Source: Lachnospiraceae bacterium (GTDB taxonomy: Bacteria; Bacillota; Clostridia; Lachnospirales; Lachnospiraceae). Taken from it: a DNA stretch of 23,426 nucleotides. Numbering within the stretch: position 1 is the stretch's first letter; every line of letters starts with the position of its first letter. Positions 1,600 through 18,685 of this stretch are shown here, piece by piece. Position numbers and translations under genes: made by a program. The notes beneath the pieces were generated by a model, which was given only the letters and a program-made list of their open reading frames with translations, was not told the origin of the DNA and ran no database searches. The stretch covers positions 1 through 23,426 of the forward strand of contig JAFVAA010000925.1 of assembly GCA_017476305.1 (NCBI GenBank), read 5' to 3'.

Positions 1600-1666
1600 A
1601 GCAAACCTCGCTTTTACATCATTTCTTAATGCTATATATTAACAAAGCCTTGCAATTTTATGTTCA

Positions 1667-1690
1667 ATATGCTACTATATGGTAGCATAT
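1667..1690. promoter_or_regulatory. Palindromic operator between divergent genes
   Basis: A 24-base inverted repeat, ATATGCTACTAT followed directly by ATGGTAGCATAT, has a single mismatch between half-sites. It sits between the reverse-strand XRE gene and the 1740 start, where a Cro/CI-type repressor would control both promoters. That the broken repressor binds here is inferred from position. Confidence 0.6.
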
Positions 1691-1739
1691 ATAAAATGAT
1701 ATATTTAGTTGCATTTATAATATTTTGAGGAGGAAGAAT

Positions 1740-2297
1740 ATGGATAATCAAATGGAAAAAATATTCATGGAACGTATTGACGCATTGGATGGCAAACTAA
1801 ATGAGGATGCCGAGTATGTGCGTTACGGAGAACAGTATCACTATTGGATGGAAGAATTAAAAAATTTGATAAAAAGGAATCATGAGGATAAAGAGATATT
1901 GATGCGGCTGGATGAGGCGGTAGGTAATTACAGCAGCAGATACGGTGAGGTTCTTTACAACTATGCTTTTCATGACGGCTTGGAAGTAGGAATGAACCAT
2001 GAAGATTACAATGGTAAAGATGACAGGAAATTCTGCACCCTGAGTGTGGAAGATATGATACATTTGATTTATATATATGATGCCTATAATATTCTATGTG
2101 ATACTCTCGTTGGCACAGTGTTAGCACCAGGGATGCGTGACGGGATTATAGGTGCTTTTAGCAGGATTCATACTGTTGTCGAAAAACATATTTCGCCAAA
2201 GTTAAAAAATGGAGATAACGCGGTAGGACATCAGATTTTGGATGATACTACGAAGGAGCCGGAAGAACGTGCGAAAATACTTATGGAAATAAATTAA
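1740..2297 (+). CDS. Hypothetical protein, possibly DUF6809-like
   Basis: The start is set at ATG 1740 because AGGAGG (1728-1733) lies just upstream; a TTG at 1725 in the same frame would place that ribosome binding site inside the gene. The product is 185 residues, acidic and helical, with no membrane segment or signal peptide. The first ~85 residues (an N-terminal helix, a YRxxxxxYxYWMEEL-like second helix, then LDEAVGNYSSRYGEVLYNYAFHDGLEVGM) resemble in layout the short helical proteins annotated DUF6809 in Firmicutes; this is recalled, not searched. The remaining ~100 residues are unfamiliar. It is divergent from the broken XRE gene and probably controlled through the palindrome at 1667-1690. 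A strong terminator ends the unit. No function is known. Confidence 0.7.
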   Translation: MDNQMEKIFMERIDALDGKLNEDAEYVRYGEQYHYWMEELKNLIKRNHEDKEILMRLDEAVGNYSSRYGEVLYNYAFHDGLEVGMNHEDYNGKDDRKFCTLSVEDMIHLIYIYDAYNILCDTLVGTVLAPGMRDGIIGAFSRIHTVVEKHISPKLKNGDNAVGHQILDDTTKEPEERAKILMEIN

Positions 2298-2321
2298 ACG
2301 AACAACAGAAGTACTATCGTT

Positions 2322-2371
2322 AAAAAGTGCAGATTCCTAAAATGTTTTTGGGGATATATCTGTACTTTTTT
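2322..2371 (+). terminator. Intrinsic terminator after the 1740-2297 gene
   Basis: AAAAAGTGCAGAT at 2322-2334 pairs with ATCTGTACTTTTT at 2358-2370 (13 bp, one G-U), giving a U-rich 3' side that continues into TTGTTTT. Confidence 0.8.
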
Positions 2372-2435
2372 GTTTTATAAAGTAAATATATGAAAGTTAA
2401 AATAATATTAAATTTTCATAAAATACGCATTTATC

Positions 2436-2464
2436 TTGCATATTCCGATAAAACATGATATGAT
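2436..2464 (+). promoter_or_regulatory. Sigma-A promoter upstream of the kinase operon
   Basis: TTGCAT (2436-2441), a 17-base spacer and TATGAT (2459-2464). This is the best promoter in the 537-base gap before HK1. Transcription would begin near 2471, leaving a leader of about 360 bases to the HK1 start that contains a terminator-like hairpin. Confidence 0.6.
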
Positions 2465-2574
2465 AATGTAGATTATTTGTACTCGGACGCACTTTTTGTG
2501 TTGCGTTTCGATTGTTAAATGGTGTAGTTAAAAAGAAAGAAATGTATGAATTTTGTTAAAATAAATAAAAAGGA

Positions 2575-2603
2575 TTGACAAAGAATGTGAGGTAGTTGAC
2601 AAT
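2575..2603 (+). promoter_or_regulatory. Second candidate promoter in the leader
   Basis: A consensus -35 TTGACA (2575-2580) with a weak -10 GACAAT (2598-2603) at 17 bases. A second TTGACA overlaps the -10 (2596-2601). The start point would fall on the (GACA) repeat. Weaker than the promoter at 2436-2464 because of the poor -10. Confidence 0.4.
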
Positions 2604-2607
2604 GTTT

Positions 2608-2630
2608 GACAGACAGACAGACAGGCAGGC
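2608..2630 (+). repeat. Short (GACA)4-GGCA tandem repeat
   Basis: Four perfect GACA units (2608-2623) followed by GGCA and GGC. The repeat lies just downstream of the candidate -10 at 2598-2603, where unit gain or loss would change the transcript start or leader. Confidence 0.7.
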
Positions 2631-2669
2631 GTAGAGACTGCCCTTAATTTGTTATACATTTTTCATGTG

Positions 2670-2714
2670 AACCATTTATGGGGAGGTAATTATTTCTTCC
2701 GTAAATGGTTTTTT
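2670..2714 (+). terminator. Leader terminator or attenuator before HK1
   Basis: AACCATTTATGG (2670-2681) pairs with CCGTAAATGGTT (2699-2710), 12 bp with one G-U, followed by T (2709-2714). It lies downstream of both candidate promoters and 121 bases before the HK1 start. It would therefore end a short leader RNA unless read through. A small hairpin GGCAG (2624-2628) / CTGCC (2638-2642) precedes it. I do not recognise a known riboswitch class here. Confidence 0.65.
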
Positions 2715-2834
2715 ACATTGTAGTTAGTGAAATAAAGATAACAGTAAATGCACATTTGATATGAGAATGGTGAGTTTAAGAGGCATAAGCGGTCATCGCT
2801 ACGCCACGGTAGTAGTTCGAGTTGGAGGTTCATT
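2715..2834 (+). other. Unassigned 3' part of the HK1 leader
   Basis: About 120 bases with no reading frame of note. It ends in the GGAGG (2824-2828) that serves HK1. A GC-richer patch (about 2780-2815) contains only weak, short pairings such as CTAC/GTAG. No convincing promoter was found here, which supports transcription from upstream. Confidence 0.4.
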
Positions 2835-5800
2835 ATGAGAAATACAATATGGAAAACTCAGATCAGGCGATTCATGGCACTCTTGCTGTGTTTTGTACTG
2901 GCTGTAATCTGTGCTGAGCCAATCAGTGCATCTGCGGTCGATAGTGCGAAAAAGACTGTGCGGGTAGGCTGGTTTGATTCAGCTTTTAACACGATTGATC
3001 AATTCGGACGCAAATCCGGTTATGCCTATGAGTATCAGCAGAAAATTGCTGCGTATTCAGGGTGGGATTATGAGTATGTGACCGGAAGCTGGCCGGAGCT
3101 GTATCAAATGCTGATAGATGGAGAGATTGATCTTTTATCTGATGTCTCTTTCACGCCGGAACGGTCGGAGCGCATGCTGTTTTCTGCCCAGCCTATGGGG
3201 ACGGAGACATATTATATCTATATTTCCCCGGAAAGCAGCAGTGGCATTTCCTATGAGGATTTAAGTTCTCTGAACGGAAAAAGAGTCGGTGTTAACAAAG
3301 ACAGCGTACAGAAAGATCTTTTTTTGGATTGGATCAAGGAACACCATATTCAAGTGGAAATGGTGGATCTTGTTACTGATGAGGACGAATCCGTTGATAT
3401 GCTTTTAAGCGGTGAGATTGATGCCTATGTCGGACTTGATGTTTACGGAGGATTTTGGAATATTCTCCCGGTCTGTAAAATCGCATCCTCGGATTATTTC
3501 TTCGCGGTCAGCAAATCCCGGACCGAGCTTCTTGAGGAGCTGGATGCTGCCATGAGCCGGATTCAAGATGAAAACAGATATTATAATGAGCAGCTTCAGG
3601 GAAAGTATTTCGATGCGGCCAGTTCCAGCCTGTATCTCACTCCGAGCGAGCGAACCTGGCTGGCTGACCACGGAAAGGTTCGGGTGGGTTATCGTGACAA
3701 CTACCTTGCCTTTTGCGCGGCAGATCCGGAAACGGGTGAGCTTACAGGTGCATTGAAGGAGTATCTGGATTATGCATCCCGCAGCATTGAGGGCGGTGAG
3801 CTTACCTTTGAGCCTATTGCCTTTCCAACAACGGAAGATGCGTTGAAGGCTCTGAAAAACGGTGAGATAGACTGTGTTTTTCCTGTGATTCTCACGCCTT
3901 ATGACGGAGAGCAGGAGGATCTCCTGGCTGTTTCGACACCGATAGAAAGTGAAATGTATGCTGTGGTGAGGACTTCCGACAGGAGTGATTTTTCCTTAAA
4001 CGGAGAGGTCGCCGTTGCGGTGAACAAGGGAAATCCCAGCTATGAAACCTTTTTGATGGACAACTTCCCGGATTGGGAGCGCGTCTATTTTGAAACCAGT
4101 GAAGACTGCCTGCGAGGAATCTCGGAGGGAGAGGCTGACTGTATCCTCATGAGCAATTATCGCATCGACAGGATCACGGCACTTATGGAACGGTACAAGT
4201 TATCTGCCCTGTCCACCGGTACCGACATGGTGGAATATTTTGCCGTACAAAGGGAAAACGGTGAGTTGTATTCCATCTTGAACAAGGCAACCTCGCTTGT
4301 CCCGGCTTCCGTTGTCAATGCGGCACTGACACACTATTCTTTTGTGGAACAGAAAGTCACGCTGGCAGAATTCCTGAAAAACAATATGCTGTCAGTACTT
4401 ACCGTTTTTGGCATTGTTCTGGCTGTGATTTTGGCACTTCTCCTCCGAAGCAGGCGTTCCGAACGCAAGACACGCAGTGCGCTCGGCAGAATTGAGGAGT
4501 TGAACGGAGAGCAGGAAAAACGTCTGGAAGAGATTGCGGCGTTGAATACAGAATTGGAGAAAAGCCAGGAGAATCTCCGGCACGCGCTGGCTGCTTCGGA
4601 GCAGGCCAGCCGCGCAAAAAGCTCATTCTTAAGCACAATGTCCCATGAGATCCGCACACCTATGAACGCCATTATCGGGCTGAACAGAATTGCCCTGGGG
4701 GATCCTGACCTTTCCCCGAAGGTCCGGGAGCATCTGGAGAAGATGGATGGCAGTGCGAAACACCTGCTGGGGCTAATCAACAACATCCTGGATGTGAGCC
4801 GGATCGAAAGCGGTCGCATGACTTTGACCAAAGAGGAGTTTTCTTTCAGCAAAATGCTGGAACAGATCAACACCATGATCGGTGCACAGTGTCAGGAAAA
4901 GGGGCTGCAATACGACTGTACGATGACGGGCCAGGTCGGCGAGTATTTCGTGGGTGACGAGATGAAGCTCAAGCAGGTATTCATCAACATACTGGGAAAT
5001 GCAGTGAAATTTACAAATGCACCCGGGCAGATTACTTTCACTATCGAACAGACTGCAATATTTGAGAATCAGGAAACCCTGCGCTTTGACATTCAGGACA
5101 CCGGTATCGGAATTGACAAGGAGTATCTTCCCAGAATTTTTGACGCTTTCACACAGGAGGACCAGACTGCCACAAATCGGTACGGTGGCACCGGACTCGG
5201 TCTGACTATCACCAAGAATATCGTGGAACTGATGAACGGTACGATATCTGTGGAGAGCACCCAGGGTGCGGGCAGCACCTTTACCGTACAGATCACGCTG
5301 CAAAGGAGTGAGAAGAAGGAGCCTCCCGCAGTGGGGCCAAGTCCTGATACATACAGGGTGCTGATTGTAGATGACGATCCTGTGGCCTGCGAACACGCCA
5401 GGCTGGTCCTGGACGAGGTGGGCATTACGTCAGATGTCTGTGTGGATGGCGAAGATGCCATACGGCAAATCGGTCTGCACCAGGCCAGGCAGGAACCCTA
5501 TAACCTGATCCTCGTGGACTGGAAGATGCCGGAAATGGACGGACTGACCTTGACACGTGAGATCCGTAAACTCTATCATGGCGACGCTGCTGTGGTCATT
5601 CTTACAGCCTATAATTGGGAGGATATTGCAGATGAGGCTCTGGATGCCGGAGTGGACAGCTTTCTATCAAAGCCTCTGTTCCCTACCACCGTTATGCAGC
5701 AGTTCGCAAAGGTAATGCAAAGCAGACTTGACGGTCAGGGGGAGGTTCACCGGACAGAGCTTTCCGGCAGGCACATCCTGATGGCTGAGGATGTGTTCAT

Positions 5801-6146
5801 CAATGCTGAGATTCTGAAAGAAATTCTCTCCATGAAAGAAATGGAAACTGAGCATGCAGAAAATGGTCAGGCTGCGGTGGAAATGTTTTCCGCCTCAGAG
5901 ATTGGTCACTTTGATGCAGTGCTGATGGACATCCGAATGCCTGTCATGGACGGACTGGATGCCGCCAGAGCAATCCGTGGGATGGATCGGCCGGATGCCA
6001 AAACAGTCCCGATCATAGCATTGACGGCCAACGCCTTTGACGAAGATGTGCAGCGTTCCCTACAAGCGGGCATGAACGCACACCTGACCAAGCCTGTAGA
6101 TCCGGACCGCCTTTATGACACTATAGAAAGATTGATTCAAGATTAA
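2835..6146 (+). CDS. Hybrid histidine kinase with two periplasmic-binding-protein sensor domains (HK1)
   Basis: A 1103-residue BvgS/EvgS-like membrane kinase. A signal peptide (about 1-34) leads into two SBP_bac_3-type solute-binding domains outside the membrane: about 41-265, opening VRVGWFD, and about 285-505, opening VRVGYRDNY. One transmembrane helix (about 518-539) and a coiled-coil linker follow. HisKA has His604 in SHEIRTPMN; the ATPase has Asn722, DTGIGI at 755 and GGTGLGL at 784. Two receiver domains follow, with Asp895 (LVDWKMP) and Asp1032 (LMDIRMP). SBP_bac_3 domains usually bind amino acids or similar polar solutes, so an amino-acid sensor is likely, ligand unknown. The ATG at 2835 has GGAGG at 2824-2828. 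There is no DNA-binding output or HPt domain. It heads a co-directional kinase array. Confidence 0.93.
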   Translation: MRNTIWKTQIRRFMALLLCFVLAVICAEPISASAVDSAKKTVRVGWFDSAFNTIDQFGRKSGYAYEYQQKIAAYSGWDYEYVTGSWPELYQMLIDGEIDLLSDVSFTPERSERMLFSAQPMGTETYYIYISPESSSGISYEDLSSLNGKRVGVNKDSVQKDLFLDWIKEHHIQVEMVDLVTDEDESVDMLLSGEIDAYVGLDVYGGFWNILPVCKIASSDYFFAVSKSRTELLEELDAAMSRIQDENRYYNEQLQGKYFDAASSSLYLTPSERTWLADHGKVRVGYRDNYLAFCAADPETGELTGALKEYLDYASRSIEGGELTFEPIAFPTTEDALKALKNGEIDCVFPVILTPYDGEQEDLLAVSTPIESEMYAVVRTSDRSDFSLNGEVAVAVNKGNPSYETFLMDNFPDWERVYFETSEDCLRGISEGEADCILMSNYRIDRITALMERYKLSALSTGTDMVEYFAVQRENGELYSILNKATSLVPASVVNAALTHYSFVEQKVTLAEFLKNNMLSVLTVFGIVLAVILALLLRSRRSERKTRSALGRIEELNGEQEKRLEEIAALNTELEKSQENLRHALAASEQASRAKSSFLSTMSHEIRTPMNAIIGLNRIALGDPDLSPKVREHLEKMDGSAKHLLGLINNILDVSRIESGRMTLTKEEFSFSKMLEQINTMIGAQCQEKGLQYDCTMTGQVGEYFVGDEMKLKQVFINILGNAVKFTNAPGQITFTIEQTAIFENQETLRFDIQDTGIGIDKEYLPRIFDAFTQEDQTATNRYGGTGLGLTITKNIVELMNGTISVESTQGAGSTFTVQITLQRSEKKEPPAVGPSPDTYRVLIVDDDPVACEHARLVLDEVGITSDVCVDGEDAIRQIGLHQARQEPYNLILVDWKMPEMDGLTLTREIRKLYHGDAAVVILTAYNWEDIADEALDAGVDSFLSKPLFPTTVMQQFAKVMQSRLDGQGEVHRTELSGRHILMAEDVFINAEILKEILSMKEMETEHAENGQAAVEMFSASEIGHFDAVLMDIRMPVMDGLDAARAIRGMDRPDAKTVPIIALTANAFDEDVQRSLQAGMNAHLTKPVDPDRLYDTIERLIQD

Positions 6147-6177
6147 GTAATTGGAAAGATTTGATTGGAGGTTAAAG

Positions 6178-9100
6178 ATGAATCGTGATAGGAACGGTGC
6201 CACGCCGCACGGGCCACGCATTCGTGCGATTAACATAGTGAGTGCATTGTTTGCCATCTTGATCGCAGTTCTTCTTATCCTGTCGTCACGCTGGTTTGAT
6301 AAAGCGTATGAGGATGCGAGAGGAGCCACGGAGAAATATGTCACCTCAGAGATGGCTGCTACGATGCTCAAACAGAGTTCTGACAATCTCACGACGCAGG
6401 TGCGTTTATATACAATTACACAGGATCCCGACTATCTCCGTGCTTATTTTGCGGAGGTGGCGACATCGAATCGTGAGAAGGCGGTTGAAACGCTGCATCA
6501 GTATCTTTCCGATACGGAGGCTTACGGCGATTTGGAAAATGCGCTGGAAAACTCCGTGGAACTGATGGAACGGGAGTACTATGCGATGGTGTTGGTTTTG
6601 GACGCAACCGATGGTCAGATAGAACCCGGCATGGAGGCTCTGGAAACTGTCAAGCTGACCGCAAAAGATCAAAGCCTCGATGCATCAGAGAAGCTCGCCC
6701 TGGCAATCACGCTCACACATGGGGAAGAATATCAGCGGTATGACAGCAAGATTGACGAGTATGTGAATCTATGCGTCGAGAGTCTGCGCATGGATCAGGA
6801 AAAGGAGCAAAGCGAGAGTGTTTTAGCGTTAGCACGTATGAGGATAAACCAATATGTGTGTGTACTGTTTCTTGTGATCGCCATTCTTTTACAAGGTATA
6901 TTGACGAATATATATATTGTCCGTCCTATTGATGGGAGTGTGAAGCTTCTCTCCGAGGATCAGTCGCTTATGCTGCGTGGCGCCTATGAGATTCAGTATC
7001 TTGAAAGTGCTTACAACAGTATGTATGAACAGAAACTTGAACGTAAAGAGCAGGAGCAGATCCTTTATGACAGTATGCTTGAACATTTTAATTCCATCTC
7101 GGATGAAAGTCTGACCGTCATCCGGTCGAACATGACGACAGGGTTAATTGAGGAAATCAGGGGGCATGACCTCTATCCGTCTGATTATGTGGGCAATACG
7201 ATAGCTGCCTATGCCCAAAGCCGTCTTGATAACCTCCTTGTCGAGGAGGACAAGGAAATTTACACACAGACCTTTGATATGGAAAAATTGGTCGAGCGCA
7301 GTGCACGTGGGGAAGGTGCTGCGACGATGGTAGCATTTACCCGCCGTCCGTCAGGCAGACAGTGTTTTGTCAAATATTCCGGCTCGGCGAGCCGGAATCC
7401 TTTGACGGGCGATGTGGATGCATTCGGTACGGAGACGGAATATAATTATGAAATGGTAAACGAAGTGCTTGACGGGAAGGTTCTTGCCGAGCAGTATGAT
7501 ATGATCGCCTATCTGGTGAGCGGATACTATGGTGTGACGATCGGGGATGCGACGAGTAAGAAACGGGGAAGTATTTTCCCAAAAGAGCCGAGCGGGATTT
7601 ATACAGATTATATCACAGATCAGGTACTGCCCGTCCTGGTGGGGGATGAGAAGGAAAAGGAGAAGACTTGTAAGGCGTTATCCTTTGAAACAATAGAGAG
7701 TGAGCTGCTTGAAAACGAGCCTTACATAGTAGATGTTGACTGTGAGATTGATGGAGAAATATTCAACAAGCGGTTCATGTATTATACCGTGGATCGGGAA
7801 AAACATTTTTATATGCTCCTAAAATCTGACATTACAGACGTACTGCGCAAGCAGAGAGAACATAATGAGTTACTTGCAGATGCACTTTTTGAGGCGGAAC
7901 AGGCGAATATTGCAAAAACAGCATTCCTGTCCTCAATGAGCCATGAGATACGAACTCCGATGAATGCGATCATAGGTCTTGACAGTATTGCATTAAAGGA
8001 TCCTGACATTTCAGAACAAACGAGAGAATATCTGACAAAGATAGGTGGCAGCGCAAAGCATCTGCTGAACCTGATAAATGACATATTGGATATGAGCCGG
8101 ATCGAGAGCGGCAGGATGGTTCTTAGCAATGAGGAGTTTTCGTTCCGCGAGATGCTGGAACAGATTAACACCATGATCAACGGGCAATGTCAGGATAAGG
8201 GACTTTCCTATGATTGTCGGATTTTAGGCTTGGTGGATGATTACTACATCGGCGACGATATGAAGCTGAAGCAGGTTCTCATCAACATCCTCGGAAATTC
8301 CGTCAAGTTCACACCGGAAGGCGGTACGGTGTCCTTTTCTGTGGAGAAAGTGGCACAGTTTGAGGATAAGGCGACGATGCGCTTTGTGATGAAAGATACC
8401 GGCATCGGAATGGACAAGGAATATCTGCCGAAAATTTTTGAGGCGTTCTCGCAGGAGGATTCCGGTAAGGCAAACAAGTATGGCAGTACGGGGCTGGGTA
8501 TGGCGATTACAAAAAACATCGTGGAGATGATGAATGGCGACATTGCGGTGGAAAGCGAAAAAGGCGCAGGTACCACATTTACTGTGACAGTTACCTTAAA
8601 AAAGACGGATAAAAAGGCAGGCTATGCGGACAACATACGACCACAGGATATGCGTATCCTTGTAGTCGATGATGACGAGGTTGATTGTGAACATGCACGT
8701 CTCATTTTGGGGGAGATAGGAATTTCTGCAGATGTAAGTTTAAGTGGTACAGAGGCAATCGAGAAGGTAAGGCTTGCTCACGCAAGGCAGGAGTCTTATA
8801 ATCTGATTCTCGTAGACTGGAAGATGCCAAAACAGGATGGGATCGAGGTAACAAGAAAAATCAGGGAGATTGTGGGGGACGATTCTGCCATCATTATTCT
8901 TACGGCATATAGTTGGGATGATGTGAAGGAGGAGGCACTTGAGGCAGGTGTAGACAACTTTATGGCAAAGCCACTGTTTGCAACCGGAGTATTGGATGAA
9001 TTTCAGGCAGCTATTCAAAAGAAGAACATTGGAAAGCCAGAAGAAGTACACCGGGCGGAACTTTCCGGGCGGCGTATCTTACTGGCGGAGGATGTGATGA

Positions 9101-9444
9101 TCAATGCGGAAATCATGAAAGAGCTCCTTGCCATGCGTGAAATGGAAGTGGATCATGCGGAGAACGGGCAGCTTGTACTTGAAATGTTTGAAAAAAGTGA
9201 AGAAAATTATTATGACGCAATCTTAATGGATGTTCGTATGCCTGTGATGGATGGGCTTGCAGCGACGCAGGCGATTCGTGCACTCTCTCGTCCTGATGCA
9301 AAGGCAGTACCGATCATCGCCATGACGGCAAACGCCTTTGATGAAGATGTGCAGCATTCCCTACAGGCGGGCATGAACGCACACCTGTCAAAGCCCGTGG
9401 AGCCGGAGCATCTGTATGAGACATTAGAGACTTTGATTCAATAG
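6178..9444 (+). CDS. Membrane hybrid histidine kinase with helical extracytoplasmic sensor (HK2)
   Basis: The start is set at ATG 6178 because GGAGG (6167-6171) precedes it; the upstream TTG at 6151 lacks a site. The product is 1088 residues. Transmembrane helices at about 17-38 and 226-246 enclose a ~190-residue helical domain resembling four-helix-bundle chemoreceptor sensors. A cytoplasmic block at about 292-553 (VIRSNMTTG, SRNPLTGDV, FYMLLKSDITDVL) looks like two PAS-type domains and is shared with HK3. HisKA follows with His589 in SHEIRTPMN, then the ATPase (DTGIGM, STGLGM), REC1 with Asp880 in LVDWKMP and REC2 with Asp1018 in LMDVRMP. It lies 31 bases after HK1 and 19 before a ferredoxin. 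The signal is unknown, and no output domain other than REC is present. Confidence 0.92.
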   Translation: MNRDRNGATPHGPRIRAINIVSALFAILIAVLLILSSRWFDKAYEDARGATEKYVTSEMAATMLKQSSDNLTTQVRLYTITQDPDYLRAYFAEVATSNREKAVETLHQYLSDTEAYGDLENALENSVELMEREYYAMVLVLDATDGQIEPGMEALETVKLTAKDQSLDASEKLALAITLTHGEEYQRYDSKIDEYVNLCVESLRMDQEKEQSESVLALARMRINQYVCVLFLVIAILLQGILTNIYIVRPIDGSVKLLSEDQSLMLRGAYEIQYLESAYNSMYEQKLERKEQEQILYDSMLEHFNSISDESLTVIRSNMTTGLIEEIRGHDLYPSDYVGNTIAAYAQSRLDNLLVEEDKEIYTQTFDMEKLVERSARGEGAATMVAFTRRPSGRQCFVKYSGSASRNPLTGDVDAFGTETEYNYEMVNEVLDGKVLAEQYDMIAYLVSGYYGVTIGDATSKKRGSIFPKEPSGIYTDYITDQVLPVLVGDEKEKEKTCKALSFETIESELLENEPYIVDVDCEIDGEIFNKRFMYYTVDREKHFYMLLKSDITDVLRKQREHNELLADALFEAEQANIAKTAFLSSMSHEIRTPMNAIIGLDSIALKDPDISEQTREYLTKIGGSAKHLLNLINDILDMSRIESGRMVLSNEEFSFREMLEQINTMINGQCQDKGLSYDCRILGLVDDYYIGDDMKLKQVLINILGNSVKFTPEGGTVSFSVEKVAQFEDKATMRFVMKDTGIGMDKEYLPKIFEAFSQEDSGKANKYGSTGLGMAITKNIVEMMNGDIAVESEKGAGTTFTVTVTLKKTDKKAGYADNIRPQDMRILVVDDDEVDCEHARLILGEIGISADVSLSGTEAIEKVRLAHARQESYNLILVDWKMPKQDGIEVTRKIREIVGDDSAIIILTAYSWDDVKEEALEAGVDNFMAKPLFATGVLDEFQAAIQKKNIGKPEEVHRAELSGRRILLAEDVMINAEIMKELLAMREMEVDHAENGQLVLEMFEKSEENYYDAILMDVRMPVMDGLAATQAIRALSRPDAKAVPIIAMTANAFDEDVQHSLQAGMNAHLSKPVEPEHLYETLETLIQ

Positions 9445-9463
9445 GATTTGGGGCGAGGGTAAT

Positions 9464-9661
9464 ATGGATAGAGATATTGACATAGATGAGCATAGGTGTT
9501 TGGCTTGTGGAACATGTATTAAGTCTTGTCCTATGGAAGCAATACATATTTGGAACGATCGTTATGCAATGGTAATCAGCCACAAATGCAATAGATGTGG
9601 GAAATGTATAGCAGCCTGTCCGGTAAAATGTATTAGCAGGCAAAATAATAAAAGTTCGTGA
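9464..9661 (+). CDS. 2x[4Fe-4S] ferredoxin-like protein inside the kinase array
   Basis: A 65-residue protein with two classical cluster motifs, CLACGTCIKSCP (about 12-23) and CNRCGKCIAACP (about 42-53), spaced as in bacterial 2[4Fe-4S] ferredoxins. All eight cysteines are present, so two clusters are expected. The usual function is low-potential electron transfer in the cytoplasm; no partner oxidoreductase is encoded nearby. It sits 19 bases after HK2 and 15 before HK3 on the same strand, so it is almost certainly co-transcribed with kinases. A role in supplying a redox signal to them is attractive but only inferred from position. GCGAGGGT (9453-9460) is the likely ribosome binding site, close to the ATG. 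Confidence 0.9.
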   Translation: MDRDIDIDEHRCLACGTCIKSCPMEAIHIWNDRYAMVISHKCNRCGKCIAACPVKCISRQNNKSS

Positions 9662-9676
9662 AAGGAGATACGGGCA

Positions 9677-12600
9677 ATGAAAAGATTTCAGACCAATTTC
9701 TATGAAAAATTGTTTGGGGCCTTAGATAATAATGCAGTGATGATGCAGGTGGAGGAAGATGGTACTTATTATCCAATTTGGTGTTCCAATGAATTTACGG
9801 AAATGATGGAAGGGACACAGGAGGATTTTATCCGTATGGAGAGCGGTGGCACGATGAAAACTATTCATCCGGATGACCATGAGGATGTTGCCTACCTTTT
9901 CAAGCATCATAAGGCAAAGGACGGTTCAAACAGCCTGCAGATCCGTAAATATACGGCAAAGGGAAATGAAATTTGGGTAAATGTCCATTATGCCTTTGTT
10001 GTGGAGGATGGCGTACAGTATGCGTACTGCAATTACTCTGATATTACGGCAATCAAAAGACGGGAGGAGATTGCGGAAATAGCCCGAAAGGAACGGGAAT
10101 CCATAAGGGTTCTGCATGATATGATGAATTCAGGACCGTGGTATATGGATTTTGACGAAAATGGGGAAATGACCGGTGTTACATGGACAGCTACATTCCG
10201 CAGGATGGTAGGATATAAGGATACAGAGGATTTCCCCGACAGGCTGGAATCCTGGTCCGATCTGTTGCATGAGGACGACAGGGAGCGAGTCTTAAAGGAA
10301 TATTACGATACGATCAAAGATTACACAGGACAGAAAATCTATGATGTTGAGTATCGGCTGTTGACGAAAGACCGTGGTTTTCGATGGTTCCATGCGATTG
10401 GTCAGCTTTCACGTCGTGAAGACGGCTCTCCGGTCACTTATGTCGGGATGTTTATTGATATTACAGACCAGAAAGAGTTAGAGCAGAAGCTGGCAGAGCG
10501 TGAGCAGGAACAGGTTCTTTACAACAGTATGATGGATCAGTTCAATACGATTGCGGATGAAAGCCTCACCGTCATCCGTTCTAACATGACGACGGGACGG
10601 ATTGAGGAAGTCAGGGGACGCGATCTCTATCCGTCAGATGTTGCAGGTAATTCCATAGAGGCTTATGCCAAAAGCCGTTTAGAGAACCTCCTTGTGGAAG
10701 AAGACAGAAGATTATATACAGAGATTTTTGATGCGGAAAACCTTCTGAAGCGCAGTGAGAGCGGGCAGGGACCGGCGACAATGGTGGGCTTTAGCAAGCG
10801 TGCTTCCGGGAAACAGTGTTTTGTCAAGTTCTCCGGGAGTGTAAGCCGTAATCCGTTGACAGGAGATGTGGCTGCGTTTGGAATTGAAACGGAATATAAT
10901 GCCGAGATGGTAAATGAGGTACTGGATGAGAAAGTGCTTGCCAGACAGTATGACATGATTACTTATATTGTCAGCGGATATTATGGAGTAACGATTGGCG
11001 ATGCGGAAAAAATAGAAAAGGGAAGCATTTTTCCGAGGGAGCACAGCGGTGTCTACATGGATTATATCAAAGATCAGGTAATACCGGTTGTGGATGGCAC
11101 GGAGGAAGAAAAGGAGGCAATGCTGCATTCCCTTTCTATGGAAACCATTGAAGAAAAATTATTGGAAAGTGAACCTTATACTGTTGATGTGACCTGTAAC
11201 ATGGATGGAGAGATTTATAATAAGAGATTTATGTTCTACACCGTGGACAGAAAAAAACGCTTTTATATTTTATTAAAATCTGATATGACTGATGTTTTAC
11301 GGGAGCAGAGGGAAAGAAACGAACTGCTGGCAAACGCTTTACATGAGGCAGAGCAGGCGAATGTGGCAAAAACAGCATTTTTAAGCTCTATGAGCCATGA
11401 GATCAGAACGCCGATGAATGCGATCATCGGCCTGGACAGTATCGCCTTAAAAGATCCTGATGTGCCGGAACGGACAAGGGAGTATCTGACAAAGATCGGT
11501 GGAAGTGCCAAACATCTACTGAACTTAATCAACGATATTCTGGATATGAGCCGTATTGAAAGCGGACGTATGACGATCAAGCATGAGGAGTTTTCTTTCC
11601 GTGAGATGTTAGAGCAGATTAACACCATGATTCACGGTCAGTGTCAGGATAAGGGACTTAGTTTTGATTGCAGGATTAACGGACTTGTTGATGATTACTA
11701 TATCGGGGATGATATGAAATTAAAGCAGGTCATCATCAATATCCTGGGAAATGCCGTGAAATTCACACCGGAGGGCGGTACGGTTTCCTTTATTGTGGAG
11801 CCGGTTTCTCAGTTTGAAGATAAGGCTACGTTTCGATTTATTATGAAAGATACCGGAATCGGAATGAGTAAAGAATACCTGCCTAAAATCTTTGATACAT
11901 TTTCACAGGAGAATTCCGGCACAACAAATAAGTACGGAAGTACAGGCTTAGGGATGGCGATCACGAAAAATATTGTGGAAATGATGAACGGCGATATTAC
12001 CGTGGAAAGTGAAAAGGGAGTAGGCTCTGCCTTTACGGTTACCGTAACATTGAAAAGGACGGATAAGAAAGCGGAAGACACCGAGAAAATCCGTCCGCAG
12101 GATATGCGGATACTTGTGATTGATGACGATCCGATTGCCTGTGAACATGCGAAGCTGATTTTAGAAGAAGTCGGCATCGTGGCAGACAGCAGCTTAAGCG
12201 GTGCAGAAGCCATAGAAATGGTAAAGCTGCATCATGCAAGGCAGGAATCGTACAATCTGATTCTCGTAGACTGGAAGATGCCGGAGCAGGATGGTATCGA
12301 AGTCACAAAAAGGATCCGTGAGATTGTAGGCAATGATTCTGCGATTATTATCCTGACTGCGTATAGCTGGGATGATGTCATGGAGGAGGCACTTGCGGCA
12401 GGGGTGGACAGCTTTATGGCAAAGCCTTTGTTCGTATCCGGTATTATTGATGAGTTCAGTCAGGCGATCCAGAAAAAAGATATAGGGAAAATCAAAGAAG
12501 AACACCGTGCGGACTTGAACGGAAAGCATGTTTTAGTGGCAGAGGATGTGATTATCAATGCGGAGATTTTAAAAGAAATCCTGGGAATGAAAAATGTGGA

Positions 12601-12910
12601 TGTGGATCATGCGGAAAACGGTCAGATGGTCGTGGATATGTTTGCGGAAAGTCCGGAAAACTATTACGATGCCATTCTTATGGATGTACGGATGCCGGTC
12701 AAGGACGGGCTGGCTGCTACGGCAGAAATCCGTGCATTAGACAGACAGGATGCAAAAGAGATCCCGATCATAGCGATGACGGCAAACGCCTTTGATGAAG
12801 ATGTGCAGCACTCATTACAGGCAGGAATGAACGCACATCTGTCGAAACCGGTGGAGCCGGAGCATCTGTATGAGACGTTGGAAACATTGATTCGGGAGGA
12901 CAAAAAATGA
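9677..12910 (+). CDS. Cytoplasmic PAS-containing hybrid histidine kinase (HK3)
   Basis: A 1077-residue soluble kinase with no signal peptide or membrane helix. PAS1 spans about 18-130 and PAS2, a PAS_3-like domain ending GMFIDITDQKELEQ, spans about 145-268. The sensor block shared with HK2 lies at about 276-538. HisKA has His574 in SHEIRTPMN. The ATPase carries NILGNAVKF, DTGIGM and STGLGM. REC1 starts near 810 with Asp865 in LVDWKMP; REC2 starts near 951 with Asp1003 in LMDVRMP. From the shared block to the C-terminus it is a close paralogue of HK2, so one arose by duplication with replacement of the N-terminal input. AAAGGAGA (9661-9668) precedes the ATG. Its stop overlaps the HK4 start in ATGA, implying translational coupling. 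It would sense a cytoplasmic cue, type unknown. Confidence 0.92.
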   Translation: MKRFQTNFYEKLFGALDNNAVMMQVEEDGTYYPIWCSNEFTEMMEGTQEDFIRMESGGTMKTIHPDDHEDVAYLFKHHKAKDGSNSLQIRKYTAKGNEIWVNVHYAFVVEDGVQYAYCNYSDITAIKRREEIAEIARKERESIRVLHDMMNSGPWYMDFDENGEMTGVTWTATFRRMVGYKDTEDFPDRLESWSDLLHEDDRERVLKEYYDTIKDYTGQKIYDVEYRLLTKDRGFRWFHAIGQLSRREDGSPVTYVGMFIDITDQKELEQKLAEREQEQVLYNSMMDQFNTIADESLTVIRSNMTTGRIEEVRGRDLYPSDVAGNSIEAYAKSRLENLLVEEDRRLYTEIFDAENLLKRSESGQGPATMVGFSKRASGKQCFVKFSGSVSRNPLTGDVAAFGIETEYNAEMVNEVLDEKVLARQYDMITYIVSGYYGVTIGDAEKIEKGSIFPREHSGVYMDYIKDQVIPVVDGTEEEKEAMLHSLSMETIEEKLLESEPYTVDVTCNMDGEIYNKRFMFYTVDRKKRFYILLKSDMTDVLREQRERNELLANALHEAEQANVAKTAFLSSMSHEIRTPMNAIIGLDSIALKDPDVPERTREYLTKIGGSAKHLLNLINDILDMSRIESGRMTIKHEEFSFREMLEQINTMIHGQCQDKGLSFDCRINGLVDDYYIGDDMKLKQVIINILGNAVKFTPEGGTVSFIVEPVSQFEDKATFRFIMKDTGIGMSKEYLPKIFDTFSQENSGTTNKYGSTGLGMAITKNIVEMMNGDITVESEKGVGSAFTVTVTLKRTDKKAEDTEKIRPQDMRILVIDDDPIACEHAKLILEEVGIVADSSLSGAEAIEMVKLHHARQESYNLILVDWKMPEQDGIEVTKRIREIVGNDSAIIILTAYSWDDVMEEALAAGVDSFMAKPLFVSGIIDEFSQAIQKKDIGKIKEEHRADLNGKHVLVAEDVIINAEILKEILGMKNVDVDHAENGQMVVDMFAESPENYYDAILMDVRMPVKDGLAATAEIRALDRQDAKEIPIIAMTANAFDEDVQHSLQAGMNAHLSKPVEPEHLYETLETLIREDKK

Positions 12911-14955
12911 ACAGTAATATGATGGATTCGATTGATCAGATCGGCAATAATATGCCGGGTGGATTTTTCGTATATCTGGCAGAGGGCGACGAGGAAGTGA
13001 TTTATGTCAATGATGTTGTGCTTGACATCTTTGGCTGTAAATCGTTTGAGGAATGGAAGGAGCTCACCGGAGGCACATTTAAGGGAATGGTGCATCCGGA
13101 GGATGTAGCTCTGATGGAGGAGTCGATTGCGCTACAGGTATCGTCAAATAAAAAAGAACTGGACTACATTGAATACCGCATTATAAGGAAAGACGGTGAA
13201 GTCCGCTGGGTGGACGACTATGGCAGGCTTGTCCATACGGAGGAATACGGGGATGTTTTCTATGTGCTGCTTAGGGATATTACGGATATGCACACAGACC
13301 GTGACGAAAACCGTCGCAGGGAGGATGTGATAGAAGGACTTAGTGCGGATTATAAATCGATCTATCTTGTAAACCTTGATAGCGGGGATATGATGCCCTA
13401 TCAGTTGGAACACAGTTATTTTGGTAAAATAGCAAAAGAGATATATGAGGAGGATCTGAAAAAAGCCGATTGGAAAACGATCCCCCCGATCTATGCTGAA
13501 AGATATGTCATTAAAGAGGACAGGGAGCTTTTTCTGAAAGAAATGCAGTCGCAAAGGATCAAAGAGCGGCTTTTAGAGAAAAGTGCATATACCGTGAATT
13601 ACCGGAGTATAGAAGACGATGGAAATATCGCATATATCCAGATGTCGATTGTTCCTGTTCATAATGATTCGCTGCACCGCTACGCTGTGATGGGATTTCG
13701 TGATATTACGGAGCAGATCATGGCTGCACAGAAGGAAGTGGCAGATAAGCTGAATATGGAAATGGCGTTAGAAAGGGAGAAGCACGCAAATGAGATCAAA
13801 TCCTCCTTTTTATTTAATATTTCTCATGACATCCGCACACCGATGAATGCGATCGCAGGTTTTACCGGTCTGGCAAAACGGCATATAAATGAGCCGGACC
13901 GTCTGGAAGAATACCTTGATAAAGTAGAGGAATCCAATCATTATCTGTTGTCACTGAACGATGACCTTCTGGAAATGAGCCGCCTTGACTATGGCCGTAT
14001 CGAAGTCAGGGAAGAGGTCTGCGATCTGCGGGAGGAGCTTAATATCGTGATTGATATGTTCCGGGCACAGGCGGAGGAAAAACAGATCACCATTTCAGAG
14101 GATTTTGAAATTCAGGAACAGAAGGTATATGTGGATGCCTCCCGTTTTGAGAGGATCATGGGAAATCTGCTCAGCAATGCAGTAAAATTTACACCAAATG
14201 GCGGAAAGGTAAAAGTGGCTGCGAGGAAAAAACAGGTTTCTGATTCCGGATATGCCCGGTTTGAGTTTACGGTTGCCGATAATGGAATCGGAATGTCGGA
14301 TGAGTTCATGAAACGCATCTATGAGGCGTTCGAGCGGGAGGAAAGCTCTACAAAAACGGGGTACTCCGGAACAGGCCTGGGGCTTTCCATCACAAAACAG
14401 CTTTTGGATATTTTGGGAGGATCGATCACGGTCAACAGCAAAAAGGGCGAAGGCTCTACTTTTATTGTAAACTTTCCGCTAAAGTTAGCAGATGGAAAGC
14501 AGGAAAAAAGCGCAGAAGATATAGTACCTGAAGAAACATCAAAGGAGACAGGGGAACATCGGATCTTATTAGTAGAGGATATAGAGATCAACCGGATGCT
14601 TGCCGAAACTCTTTTAACAGAAGAAGGGTTCTTAGTCGATTCCGTGCCGGATGGAAGTGATGCCGTAGAGGAGATCAGGAATCATCCGGAATGGTACTAT
14701 GACCTGGTTTTGATGGATATACAGATGCCGGTCATGAATGGCTATGAGGCGACGAGACTGATCCGGGCAATGGGAAGAAAGGATACGGCGGTGTTGCCAA
14801 TCATCGCATTAAGTGCGAATGCCCGTGATGAAGATAAGCGGATGAGCATGGAAAGCGGGATGAATTCCCATGTGGCAAAGCCTTTTGATATGGATCATCT
14901 GCTTAAAACAATCAATGAACATATCGGGGAAAGTAAGAAAAGCAGGGAAATTTAA
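12907..14955 (+). CDS. PAS-containing hybrid histidine kinase with a single receiver (HK4)
   Basis: A 682-residue soluble kinase. A PAS_3-like domain lies at about 15-130 (MVHPEDVALME, YRIIRKDGEVRWVDDYGR, LLRDITDM). A second, more divergent PAS-like region lies at about 140-272, ending VMGFRDITEQ. HisKA has His307 in SHDIRTPMN, and the ATPase has NLLSNAVKF, DNGIGM and GTGLGLSI. One receiver at about 551-672 has Asp604 in LMDIQMP. Unlike HK1-HK3 it has one REC, and its kinase core (SHDIRTPMN, FEREESST) is nearer HK5 than HK1-HK3. The ATG overlaps the HK3 stop by four bases, so it is probably translated by coupling from HK3. The C-terminus is a short charged tail. Confidence 0.92.
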   Translation: MNSNMMDSIDQIGNNMPGGFFVYLAEGDEEVIYVNDVVLDIFGCKSFEEWKELTGGTFKGMVHPEDVALMEESIALQVSSNKKELDYIEYRIIRKDGEVRWVDDYGRLVHTEEYGDVFYVLLRDITDMHTDRDENRRREDVIEGLSADYKSIYLVNLDSGDMMPYQLEHSYFGKIAKEIYEEDLKKADWKTIPPIYAERYVIKEDRELFLKEMQSQRIKERLLEKSAYTVNYRSIEDDGNIAYIQMSIVPVHNDSLHRYAVMGFRDITEQIMAAQKEVADKLNMEMALEREKHANEIKSSFLFNISHDIRTPMNAIAGFTGLAKRHINEPDRLEEYLDKVEESNHYLLSLNDDLLEMSRLDYGRIEVREEVCDLREELNIVIDMFRAQAEEKQITISEDFEIQEQKVYVDASRFERIMGNLLSNAVKFTPNGGKVKVAARKKQVSDSGYARFEFTVADNGIGMSDEFMKRIYEAFEREESSTKTGYSGTGLGLSITKQLLDILGGSITVNSKKGEGSTFIVNFPLKLADGKQEKSAEDIVPEETSKETGEHRILLVEDIEINRMLAETLLTEEGFLVDSVPDGSDAVEEIRNHPEWYYDLVLMDIQMPVMNGYEATRLIRAMGRKDTAVLPIIALSANARDEDKRMSMESGMNSHVAKPFDMDHLLKTINEHIGESKKSREI

Positions 14956-14976
14956 CATAATGAGGGGGGACAGTTT

Positions 14977-17900
14977 GTGAAAAAGAATGATGATGAAAAG
15001 GATGGAAGCAGTTCAGGACTTGGACAGTATCTTTCGCCATTTTCAGTATGGGCGTTGTCTTTCGGATGTGCGGTAGGCTGGGGTTCATTTGTGATGCCGG
15101 GTACGACATTTTTACCGAAGGCAGGTCCACTTGGAACGGCACTCGGTATTTTGATCGGAGCAGTTGTCATGTTCATTATAGGCATGAATTATCACTATCT
15201 GATGAATAAATATCCGGATGCAGGGGGGACGCTTACTTATTCCATTAAAACATTCGGTTATGATCATGGTTTTTTAAGTTCGTGGTTTCTTATTTTGGTT
15301 TATATTGCTATCATTTGGGCAAATGCGACCGCACTTGCCCTGATTGCCAGAAATCTTTTTGGTGGATTGTTTCAGTTTGGATTTCATTATCAGGTTTTGG
15401 GCTATGATGTTTATTTGGGAGAAGTTTTACTGACGATGGCAGCAATCCTTTTGCTTGGATTCGTCTGTATCCGTGGAAAAAGGCTGGCAGTAGGGCTGCA
15501 GACAGTATTGGCACTGGTTTTGTTCTTTGGAGTAGTGATCTGTGCTTATGCCGTGATGAAAGTCCATCATGGTGGAATAAGCAGTATGGCACCGGCTTTT
15601 TCTGCGGATTTGAAACATCCGGTCAGGCAGGTTTTTTCGATTGTTGCATTGTCACCGTGGGCGTTTGTGGGTTTTGAGTCTGTTTCAAATTCTACGAAAG
15701 GTTTTAAGTTTTCAGTCAAAAAATCAATATGGATCATGTCAGCGGCACTTGTCTGTGGAACTATCGTTTATGTCCTGCTGACACAGATGGCAATCATGAT
15801 CCTGCCGGAAGGATATGCGGATTGGACGGATTATATTGCCGATTTGGGAAATTTGAGCGGACTTCCGGGACTTCCTACCTTTTTCGCTGTTCATGCTGCT
15901 ATTGGACAAAAGGGAATCTTTCTCTTAGGGGTTGCGGCAATGGCGGGAATTGTTACGGGGCTGGTTGGAAACTATATTGCAGCCAGCAGGCTGTTATATA
16001 CAATGGCAGAGGATAATATTCTGCCAAAGTGGTTTGGAAAATTGAATGAGGACGGAAGTCCGAAAAATGCATTTCTGTTCCTGATGGCGATTTCATTACC
16101 AATTCCATTTTTTGGAAGGACGGCGATAGGCTGGATTGTGGACGTGAATACCGTGGGTGCTACGATTGCTTATGGTTATACCTCTGCTGCGGCTTTTGTA
16201 AATGCCAAAAAGGAAAAGAACTTAAAAGTACAGATAACAGGATTTTTGGGCCTTGTAATGTCGGTGGTATTTTTCTTTTATTTTATGGCGTTGTCCTCCG
16301 GCGCAATGGCTACGGAATCTTATCTGATTCTTGAGTTTTGGTGTATTTTAGGATTTGTATATTTCCGGTATATGTTCGGCAAGGATAAAGACAGGCGGTT
16401 TGGAAAATCTACCATAGTGTGGATCGGATTTCTGTTTTTGATCTTTTTTACTTCCCTTGTATGGGTAAAGCAGGCAACGGATGACATGACGGAGATCGTG
16501 GTACATAATATCAGCGGATATTATGAGAGGAATAATCCGGATCAGGACATGGGGCAGATCATGGATGCTGAAAAATATATGGCTGAGCAGCTAAAGGAGG
16601 CTGACCGTGTGCATACACGGAACAGTATTATCCAGATGGGGCTGAATGTGATCGCTCTTGCCATTATGTTCAGTATTTATTCAACGATGTCCAGACGTGA
16701 AAAGCAGATGGAGGTTGAAAAGTACCAGGCGGAGGAAAGCAGTAAGGCAAAGGGGGCTTTTCTGTCAAATATGTCACATGATATACGAACCCCCATGAAT
16801 GCGATTATAGGGTATATCAATCTGGCGGAGAGGGATGGGAATAACCTGCCTAAAATGCAGGAATATCTTGCAAAGATAAAAACTTCCAGCCATCATCTTT
16901 TGGCACTGATCAATGATGTACTTGAAATGAGCCGTATCGAAAGCGGCAAAATGGATTTAGAGCCGATAGCGGTTGATCTAAAGAAAACATTGATGGAAGT
17001 ACAGGATATGTTTTCAACACAGATGGAGGAAAAGAATATCCATTTTCGTGTGGATGTATCCCATGCAAAGAGAAGTCTGGTATATTGTGATAAGAACCGT
17101 TTGAACCGGGTACTCTTAAATCTTTTAAGCAATGCCTATAAATTCACGCCGGAGGGTGGAAATGTTTCTGTATCCTTATGGCAGATTGACGATGGGGATA
17201 AAGAGTATGGAAGATATGAACTCCGTGTAGCGGACAGCGGGATCGGTATGACAAAGGAGTTTGCCGCAAAAGTTTTTGAGGCATTTGAAAGAGAGAGGAC
17301 TTCCACGGTCAGCGGTATTCAGGGAACGGGACTTGGCATGGCGATCACAAAGAGCATTATTGACCTGATGGGTGGCACAATCGAAGTCAATACGGCTCCG
17401 GATGCCGGAACGGAATTTGTGATCCGTGTGAGATTTAAGCTGCAAGAGGGGAATGCTGTTTCCTCTGAAGATACAGTGGGAGAGGATGATATTCAAAGTC
17501 TTGCACCGGATTTTTCCAAAATGCGTCTGCTCTTAGTGGAGGATATGGAAATCAACAGGGAAATTGCCTATGAAATCCTTTCAAACATGGGTTTTGCTGT
17601 TGAAATGGCTGAAAACGGAAAAGAGGCAGTCGATAAAGTGAGGGAATCCTCGCATGGCTATTATGATGCCGTGCTGATGGATATACAGATGCCGGTCATG
17701 AATGGATATGATGCCACAAAAGAGATCAGGAAACTGGAGGATTCGGAACTTGCAAAAATTCCTATTCTTGCCATGACAGCGAATGCGTTTTCTGAAGATG
17801 TCAGAAGGGCAGAAGATGTCGGCATGAATGGGCATATAGCAAAGCCGATCAATCTTGAGGATTTGCAGGAGAAATTAAAAAGTGTCTTTTCGGAAAAGGG

Positions 17901-18323
17901 TATCGCTGCCCAAAAGGAAGAACATCATGCAGATCTGACCGGAAAGCGTATTCTTCTGGCAGAAGATGTTTTCATCAATGTGGAAGTGATGAAAGAAATA
18001 TTAGGAATGAAGGGGATGGAGGTAGATACAGCGGAGAATGGTAAAATTGCCGTAGAATTATTTTCCGAACATACGGAAAATATTATGATGCGATACTCAT
18101 GGATATGCGGATGCCGGTTATGGGCGGTGCGGATGCGACCTCTGCTATACGCTCTATAGAGCGGGAGGATGCAAGGAATATCCCGATCATCGCACTTACA
18201 GGAGATGCGTTCAATGAAGATATGAAACAGTATATGGAGGCGGGATTGAATGATTATCTGACAAAACCTGTCGATCCGGATAAACTCTATGAAACATTAG
18301 AAAAGTGGATCCGTGATGAGTAG
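14977..18323 (+). pseudogene. APC-type permease fused to a hybrid histidine kinase (HK5), frameshifted in the last receiver
   Basis: Opens with GTG 14977 after GAGGGGGGA (14962-14970). Residues ~20-495 form a multi-helix APC-superfamily amino-acid transporter: GWGSFVMPG (34-42, the broken first helix), GFESVSN, and the loop RLLYTMAEDNILPKWFG from Arg338. An external loop (~496-550) and one more membrane helix (~552-572) lead to HisKA with His601 in SHDIRTPMN, an ATPase (DSGIGM, GTGLGM), REC1 with Asp902 in LMDIQMP, and REC2 from ~991. The first frame ends at 18159 in unrelated sequence; the rest of REC2, including its LMDMRMP aspartate (18102-18104), continues in the -1 frame to 18323. One base is missing near 18078-18083 relative to the ENYYDAILMD pattern of HK2 and HK3. 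The permease may serve as the ligand detector, as the SLC5 domain does in CbrA. The kinase, ATPase and first receiver remain intact. Confidence 0.85.
18076..18086 (+). other. Frameshift site in the HK5 terminal receiver
   Basis: The first frame reads GAA AAT ATT ATG; the paralogues predict GAA AAT TAT TAT GAT. Loss of a single T (or A) restores the frame. No canonical slippery heptamer is present here (G GAA AAT does not fit X XXY YYZ), so programmed frameshifting is unlikely. A genuine deletion or a sequencing error is more plausible. Confidence 0.7.
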
Positions 18324-18363
18324 GCTGTTAAAAAAGAAAAAGTCGTGGAAAGTTCGTTTTTTA

Positions 18364-18392
18364 TTGCTTTATGTGTCATAACGTGATATACT
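18364..18392 (+). promoter_or_regulatory. Sigma-A promoter of the HTH/transglutaminase/WYL unit
   Basis: TTGCTT (18364-18369), a 17-base spacer and TATACT (18387-18392). The start point would be near 18399, immediately upstream of the palindrome at 18404-18418. Confidence 0.65.
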
Positions 18393-18403
18393 TAATATAG
18401 AAA

Positions 18404-18418
18404 TACTCCAATGGAGTA
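18404..18418. promoter_or_regulatory. Perfect palindromic operator TACTCCA-A-TGGAGTA
   Basis: Seven-base arms are perfectly inverted around one A. It lies just after the predicted transcription start and before the AAGGAG (18423-18428) of the HTH gene, so a bound protein would block elongation or initiation. The small HTH protein encoded next is the obvious candidate binder (inferred from position). Confidence 0.65.
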
Positions 18419-18433
18419 CAAAAAGGAGCAGTT

Positions 18434-18649
18434 ATGACACATAATGAATTATTAAAATTAGCAAGAAAGAAGTCTGGAATGTCACAGTCAGAGTTTGCAG
18501 GATATTTTCAAATGCCGAAGAAAACCTTGCAGCATTGGGAATTAAGCGAGCGGAAAGTACCGGATTATCTTCTTCGGCTGATGCTCTACAAGCTTGAAAT
18601 GGAGGGGCTTGTGAGCGGGTTGCAGGAGATGATGGATCAGGAGGATTGA
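18434..18649 (+). CDS. Small XRE/HTH DNA-binding protein
   Basis: A 71-residue protein, essentially one helix-turn-helix domain: LARKKSGMSQSEFAGYF forms the first helix and turn, MPKKTLQHWELSERKVP the recognition helix region, followed by a Leu-rich helix and an acidic tail. This layout is that of short Cro/CI-like or antitoxin-like regulators of Clostridia. No toxin-like partner is recognisable next to it. The ATG at 18434 has AAGGAG six bases upstream, behind a clear promoter and palindromic operator, so negative autoregulation is likely. The next gene begins 36 bases downstream. Confidence 0.85.
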   Translation: MTHNELLKLARKKSGMSQSEFAGYFQMPKKTLQHWELSERKVPDYLLRLMLYKLEMEGLVSGLQEMMDQED

Positions 18650-18685
18650 CATCATACAGGCATGAAAGAGAGGGGGCTGGTCACG

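Follow-up and report, generated by a model that had tools for sequence, protein, structure and literature searches.

Where do signals go from five hybrid histidine kinases that are encoded in one row, with no recognisable output domain between them? The question is posed by a 23,426-nucleotide stretch of a gut Lachnospiraceae bacterium (assembly GCA_017476305.1, contig JAFVAA010000925.1; the whole stretch is hereafter the window), in which the kinases, K1 to K5, lie head to tail on the + strand at 2835-18159, the rest of K5 reaching 18323. Our answer, to which we give a probability of roughly 0.56 on comparative sequence evidence, is that they may form the sensor side of a many-to-one phosphorelay acting on cyclic di-GMP (c-di-GMP) through HptS, the label used here for a family of stand-alone histidine phosphotransfer (HPt) proteins of about 113 amino acids (aa). 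An HptS gene is present in the host genome, and in some relatives HptS genes cluster with kinases of the same classes and with receiver proteins that carry c-di-GMP output domains. Two kinase classes are distinguished, A-type (K1-K3) and B-type (K4 and K5), and the features of the array are as follows.

2298..2834, + strand: intergenic region 5' of K1, the likely location of an array promoter
2835..6146, + strand: K1, A-type; two SBP_bac_3 domains, HisKA, HATPase_c and two receivers (Pfam)
6151..9444, + strand: K2, A-type; membrane-bound input, mid module of about 270 aa, HisKA, HATPase_c and two receivers
9464..9661, + strand: ferredoxin of 65 aa with two 4Fe-4S motifs
9677..12910, + strand: K3, A-type; PAS-PAS, the mid module shared with K2, HisKA, HATPase_c and two receivers
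12907..14955, + strand: K4, B-type; PAS input, HisKA, HATPase_c and one receiver; ATGA overlap with K3
14977..18159, + strand: K5, B-type; APC permease domain, HisKA, HATPase_c, receiver 1 and the start of receiver 2
17530..17877, + strand: receiver 1 of K5, intact (Pfam)
18099..18323, + strand: remainder of receiver 2 of K5, in another frame (Pfam)

The sequence-only reading of this DNA had described five head-to-tail kinases on one strand with gaps of 31 bases or less, an ATGA overlap and only a ferredoxin between them, and the coordinates of the open reading frames (ORFs) agree: with the ferredoxin between K2 and K3, the successive spacings are 4, 19, 15, -4 (ATGA) and 21 bases, and the kinases measure 1103, 1097, 1077, 682 and 1060 aa. 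Pfam found HisKA, HATPase_c and a receiver in all five, and each kinase carries them in one chain together with the catalytic residues of a hybrid histidine kinase. Eight receivers are intact (2+2+2+1+1 from K1 to K5) and a ninth is split across two frames, which bears out the earlier count of nine with one broken. The earlier statement that no output lies between the kinases also stood, as Pfam found no DNA-binding, HPt, GGDEF, EAL or HD domain encoded there; no HPt match was found within K1-K5 either. Over its 4.0 Mb, the host genome shows 46 HisKA matches, and five of them in a row is, judged by count, more than chance.

The cores had been called similar, which is true within two groups: identity is 64-87% among K1-K3 and 45% between K4 and K5, while B-type and A-type cores share 35-42%. 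In 13/13 aligned A-type rows, K1-K3 included, the four catalytic boxes (phospho-His, N, G1 and G2) are invariant, as are Asp, Thr and Lys of the receiver, and K4 and K5 retain the catalytic-box and receiver residues except for Ser at the receiver Thr position in K4. That every input differs was right for most of the array; K2 and K3, however, have nearly identical cores (87%) despite different N-termini, and are 77% identical over K3 residues 263-1075, a stretch that includes their shared module of about 270 aa without a Pfam name. The double PAS input ascribed to two kinases was recovered in K3 (two Pfam PAS stretches), whereas K4 has one by Pfam and a second by eye, and the helical membrane sensor of K2 was likewise recognised by eye, its input having no Pfam match. 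The NCBIfam matches listed for each kinase (25 apiece) were all under the cut-offs. Fusions like that of K5 are common: of 8000 proteins scored against its permease part, 3104 match at E <= 1e-30, and the 120 that were listed carry HisKA and HATPase_c in precomputed annotation. Elsewhere in the host genome, a 729-aa protein (L089:375-2564, contig C810) carries tandem K3-type mid modules, two strong matches and one partial, with no kinase core matched in its ORF.

These identities bear on the idea that signals are integrated before phosphotransfer, in an array-level complex of mixed kinase dimers such as that of RetS and GacS. The near-identity of the K2 and K3 cores would permit, rather than require, cross-phosphorylation or mixed dimers, and GacS-RetS kinase interactions are described (PMC5992135). 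The distance of the K4 and K5 cores from those of K1-K3 makes cross-class dimers unlikely, and we consider the complex as a whole quite unlikely.

A relay through HptS would call for an HPt encoded apart from the array, as the sequence-only reading had guessed, and a stand-alone HPt of the family that clusters with kinase relatives was indeed found in the host genome (G000), away from the array. This genome contains 103 REC and 20 HPt matches, many of the HPt domains being fused to other hybrid kinases, and its single HptS (contig C863, 122 aa) scores 30.6 bits with Pfam Hpt, for which the cut-off is 24.6. Since C863 had been part of earlier models, it was rescored with a model of nine relatives that left it out, and reached 82.8 bits (E 5.9e-23) among 1134 own ORFs from 44 own contigs, the next of which reached 36.1. 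In the 15 genomes holding array relatives, an HPt match was found in 12 and a clear HptS in nine (L126, L128, L129, L132, L134, L135, L137, L138 and L139); one further clear HptS came from the genome of L049, and four other small HPts (L127, L130, L133 and L136) match the model more weakly, at 38-63 bits. An HPt fold fits the result of a PDB profile search with HptS, in which HPt and CheA-type chains matched weakly, the best of them (a chain named BRIC1) at 1.4e-07; NCBIfam gave no match for HptS.

The link between HptS and the array kinases comes from gene clusters in relatives. Writing A and B for the two kinase classes and RGE for a REC-GGDEF-EAL protein, the gene orders are A-HptS-A in L049, A-B-HptS in L024, A-RGE-HptS in L135, RGE-A-HptS-hybrid in L204 and L207, RGE-A-HptS in L209, RGE-HptS-kinase in L214 and kinase-HptS-RGE in L215, while L216 holds RGE, HptS and four hybrids; HptS also lies beside A/B kinases and/or RGE in L156, L166, L168, L205 and L206. 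Loci L204-L207, L209 and L214-L216 were picked because their coordinates looked close, and the RGE of L203-L216 were recognised by similarity rather than by Pfam. A three-gene module of RGE, A-type kinase and HptS in one cluster is thus present in L135, L204, L207 and L209.

Within +/-1.5 kb, RGE adjoins HptS in 18 of the best 30 HptS loci, with frames often clipped at the locus edge; these 30 include the host's own and that of G177, both part of the HptS model. The other 12 comprise one split GGDEF-EAL frame, three with a kinase only, one REC-GGDEF (L155, in G177), two with a GGDEF ORF and five with nothing recognisable, the host's own locus among the last. Additionally, 11 of 20 weaker HptS loci, viewed up to +/-6 kb, hold a hybrid kinase and/or a receiver effector. 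Of the 28 non-kinase receiver proteins that were taken from HptS loci and submitted to Pfam, 21 proved to be c-di-GMP enzymes: five REC-GGDEF-EAL, one REC-GGDEF and 15 REC with HD_5, four of which also carry GGDEF. Among the first ten REC-HD_5 proteins, three are from picked loci and that of L236 is 2 kb distant; two further HptS neighbours tested with the first REC-GGDEF-EAL set proved to be a GGDEF protein without REC and a protein without match, and several small receivers in HptS loci lie outside the 28. The catalytic EAL residues are invariant in 5/5 RGE proteins. Another tie to c-di-GMP is that K2-like inputs occur on GGDEF proteins beside HptS (L138/L142 and L139) and within long RGE proteins (L144 and L147). 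In the latter two, a second GGDEF and a K2-like input are fused to REC-GGDEF-EAL, and these proteins might act on c-di-GMP in both directions under a membrane sensor.

Alternatively, the kinases might act on distant DNA-binding receivers, or HptS might serve a chemotaxis-type pathway. The host genome does encode REC-AraC and REC-OmpR-type regulators, and CheB genes are found in four HptS loci, yet the predominance of c-di-GMP enzymes among the 28 tested receivers, and of RGE genes directly beside HptS, argues for another output, and we judge this alternative very unlikely. Loci with CheB (L219, L221, L222 and L229, with CheA too in L221) contain a weaker HptS class, so that chemotaxis-type clusters, too, may be served by a free HPt. 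In another genome (G121, L159:520-1842), HptS lies directly behind a flagellin gene, a hint of motility output.

In the proposed c-di-GMP relay, each kinase would sense its own cue, through two solute-binding domains, a membrane-bound domain, PAS domains or an amino-acid permease, would autophosphorylate and would pass the phosphate to its own receivers. One receiver would then hand it to HptS, encoded elsewhere in the genome, and HptS would phosphorylate the REC domain of a c-di-GMP enzyme, in relatives REC-GGDEF-EAL or REC-HD. The target in this species is perhaps a REC-GGDEF protein on contig C477, a candidate discussed below. Co-transcription as one operon would set the amounts of the five sensors together, and one messenger pool would read mixed nutrient and other cues. 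The contribution of the array would be this co-expression of five inputs, with many kinases served by one HPt.

The association of the parts was also followed across 299 family genomes from 298 genera, with thresholds that we chose ourselves, at most 15, 5, 6 and 4 candidates scored per genome and no unrelated control family. HptS was found in 159 genomes and A-type kinases in 117, both being present in 107 (Fisher p 5e-29; this and the following p values ignore kinship). B-type kinases were found in 176, together with HptS in 150 (p 5e-45), a breadth for which the B-type model was rejected as a specific marker. RGE occurred in 41 genomes, 37 of them with HptS (p 1e-7) and 36 with A-type kinases. 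Ten A-positive and four RGE-positive genomes are without HptS.

The same gene order was sought in other genomes and found in one, L013 (RGIG4856, a metagenome-assembled genome (MAG) from roe deer rumen), with K4 and K5 swapped; the array is therefore not confined to this genome, which had been named as a ground for abandoning the idea of a functional unit. There, K1-K2-K3-K5-K4 form one run with gaps of -4, 94, 36 and -4, without a ferredoxin match and with a single receiver in K5. Identity to the window is 89.7% for K1, 87.4% for K2, 66% for K5 and 70.5% for K4, and K3 aligns in two pieces, one at 64% and one at 84% over the first 131 residues. A family scan puts the L013 genome (G177) in a different genus from the window, and K1-K2 may well have passed from one genus to another. 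About 2.8 kb behind the L013 array, genes for a MobA/MobL relaxase and, after it, a serine recombinase (L201:9577-13274) suggest that the region is mobilisable or a former insertion site. The array is not a genus trait, because the K2 input was found in just 2/28 genus genomes, one being the host's own and the other 31% identical. A GTDB-wide pattern scan with K2, which detects close relatives only, gave full-length K2 elsewhere only in L013, the other 42 loci matching parts.

Same-strand runs of at least two A/B kinases occur in 13 of these 43 loci, with A directly followed by B in 8 of the 13; A-type kinases are present in each locus by design, as the loci were found with K2. In other genomes, A-type kinases usually have two receivers and B-type kinases one, with exceptions in one-receiver kinases with an A-like core (L214 and L215) and in a two-receiver K5 paralog in the host genome (C266). 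The host encodes at least ten A/B kinases (K1-K5, C309, C625, C34, C266 and C924). There is no sign of a duplicate array in the host genome, as C625, C266 and C924 have no adjoining second kinase on their short contigs.

These comparisons also bear on whether the five are independent orphan kinases, brought together by tandem duplication and input swapping, with separate unlinked partners and an adjacency without signalling meaning. The resemblance of the K2 and K3 cores behind different N-termini favours such a history, as do the paralogs of K3, K4 and K5 that stand alone on C625, C924 and C266; K1-K2 being 87-90% identical to L013 and K3-K5 mostly 64-70% implies that the parts evolved apart. 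Set against this are the clustering of both kinase classes with HptS and RGE in other genomes, the 13 loci with kinase runs, and the retention of a tightly spaced array in two genera, and we regard independence as unlikely.

Several observations weigh against a c-di-GMP relay through HptS. Neither an HPt nor an output is linked to the array, and the three-gene module of the relatives was not found in the window, which has kinases only, with HptS unlinked. No REC-bearing RGE was found in G000 (79% complete), the best match (E 1.9e-108) lacking REC, and a close RGE is missing from the L013 genome too, where the REC-GGDEF-EAL protein encoded at another place (L148, E 1.7e-140) is more distant. 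The host's HptS is only 26-34% identical to ten others and sits between spoVT-like and hup-like genes (named by eye). HptS lies within about 5 kb of at least 12 of about 150 listed A-type places, so that most A-type kinases are unlinked to it, as in the window, and 9 of the 20 weaker HptS loci have no signalling neighbour. Seven of the 28 receiver proteins are not c-di-GMP enzymes: four CheB and one lone receiver lie in chemotaxis-like clusters, and a second lone receiver and an OmpR-type protein (on the other strand) in L212. Three other G000 receiver proteins, picked as controls, were two REC-AraC and one of REC-OmpR type. Finally, kinase-rich genomes may carry all the parts regardless.

The host genome nevertheless offers candidate targets for the proposed relay. 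The L013 genome has a REC-GGDEF protein encoded divergently from HptS, and its best G000 match, on C477, is 50% identical and has a GGDEF motif; it is broken near the contig end, where the match runs through stops. Four coding regions of contig C309 share a strand, namely those for an HD-GYP end (HD_5, 64.6 bits), for an HPt that is 146 aa long and scores 30 bits with the HptS model, for a GAF-GGDEF protein and for an A-type kinase. Eight G000 receiver proteins picked by length or motif were five REC-HD and three REC-GGDEF; with the AraC- and OmpR-type controls also present, c-di-GMP is a common but not the sole receiver output in the host.

The frame break that splits the ninth receiver probably belongs to the strain or to the assembly. 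In receiver 2 of K5, profile positions 1-46 match 17950-18087 and positions 41-110 match 18078-18299, which places the break near 18087. P0006, a protein of 1115 aa that is 99% identical to K5 over its first 480 residues and perhaps comes from the same species as the window, has two receivers, as has the stand-alone K5 paralog on C266 (L093; 79% identical), which runs off the contig start; a fusion scar unique to the window was therefore ruled out. A meaningful truncation that alters K5 signalling could be read from the break falling inside receiver 2 and from the K5 of L013, which stops after receiver 1 (979 aa). Given P0006 and C266, and given that the stops in the C477 match make sequence errors in this MAG plausible, we see little likelihood of it.

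The surroundings of the array are less telling. A promoter-like site at 2575-2603 scores 10/12 and gives no evidence of function, because 42 such sites occur in 1-20000 where 39.1 +/- 6.3 are expected; the promoter and terminator scan was not above shuffled sequence, and Rfam and tRNA searches of the window gave no matches. Genes 3' of the array look unrelated (a small HTH protein, a WYL regulator, a LexA-like S24 protein and a sigma-70 region-4 protein). Upstream of K1 is a 190-aa protein (1725-2297) that neither Pfam nor NCBIfam nor PHROG matched and whose paralog (L115:2478-3041) shares contig C36 with a free receiver and an HPt-containing protein. The ferredoxin at 9464-9661 may be a redox partner or a passenger.

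In RpfC-RpfG, a hybrid kinase that carries its own HPt acts on a REC-HD-GYP phosphodiesterase; the proposed relay resembles it in leading from kinase to REC-HD-GYP, with the HPt as a separate protein. The sequence-only reading had called the arrangement unusual, and this applies to the row of genes rather than to the convergence. Pseudomonas aeruginosa HptB is supplied with phosphate by three orphan hybrids encoded at scattered loci (PA1611, ErcS' and SagS) and signals on to HsbR; the network includes the cyclase HsbD and affects c-di-GMP (PMC5085249). The host genome likewise has several hybrid kinases without HPt and a stand-alone HPt, with five of the kinases in one row. HsbR acts as kinase and phosphatase on an anti-anti-sigma factor (PMC5085249), whereas the partners at HptS loci in relatives are mostly c-di-GMP enzymes. 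The best reading is that the array relay would work like the HptB system, without being filed as it: a Clostridia version of HptB fan-in. As in the GacS/RetS/LadS network (PMC5992135, PMC4866733 and PMC8175716), kinases with different inputs would act on one output; integration in that network includes contact between kinases, in which it differs from the relay proposed here. A transporter domain also serves as kinase input in CbrA/CrbS (SLC5/STAC; PMC7096432 and PMC9100948); theirs is SLC5, that of K5 an APC amino-acid permease (PF13520), and close relatives with this fusion are numerous.

Among the open-licence papers listed by our literature searches, we came across no account of such a module for Lachnospiraceae. 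The chances seem to us evenly balanced that a c-di-GMP phosphorelay not described before is widespread in the family, with banks of one- and two-receiver kinases that can expand and that converge on one small free HPt, HptS, and a receiver-c-di-GMP enzyme. The window would then be an extreme case, a cassette of five sensors separated from its HPt and partly exchanged between genera. Hybrid kinases without an assigned output are numerous in gut and rumen Clostridia, and this genome alone has 46 HisKA matches. If the link from A/B kinases through HptS to c-di-GMP is true, a large part of these orphan hybrid kinases would gain a common, testable output, and the array would offer a natural experiment on how one relay gains and exchanges sensors.

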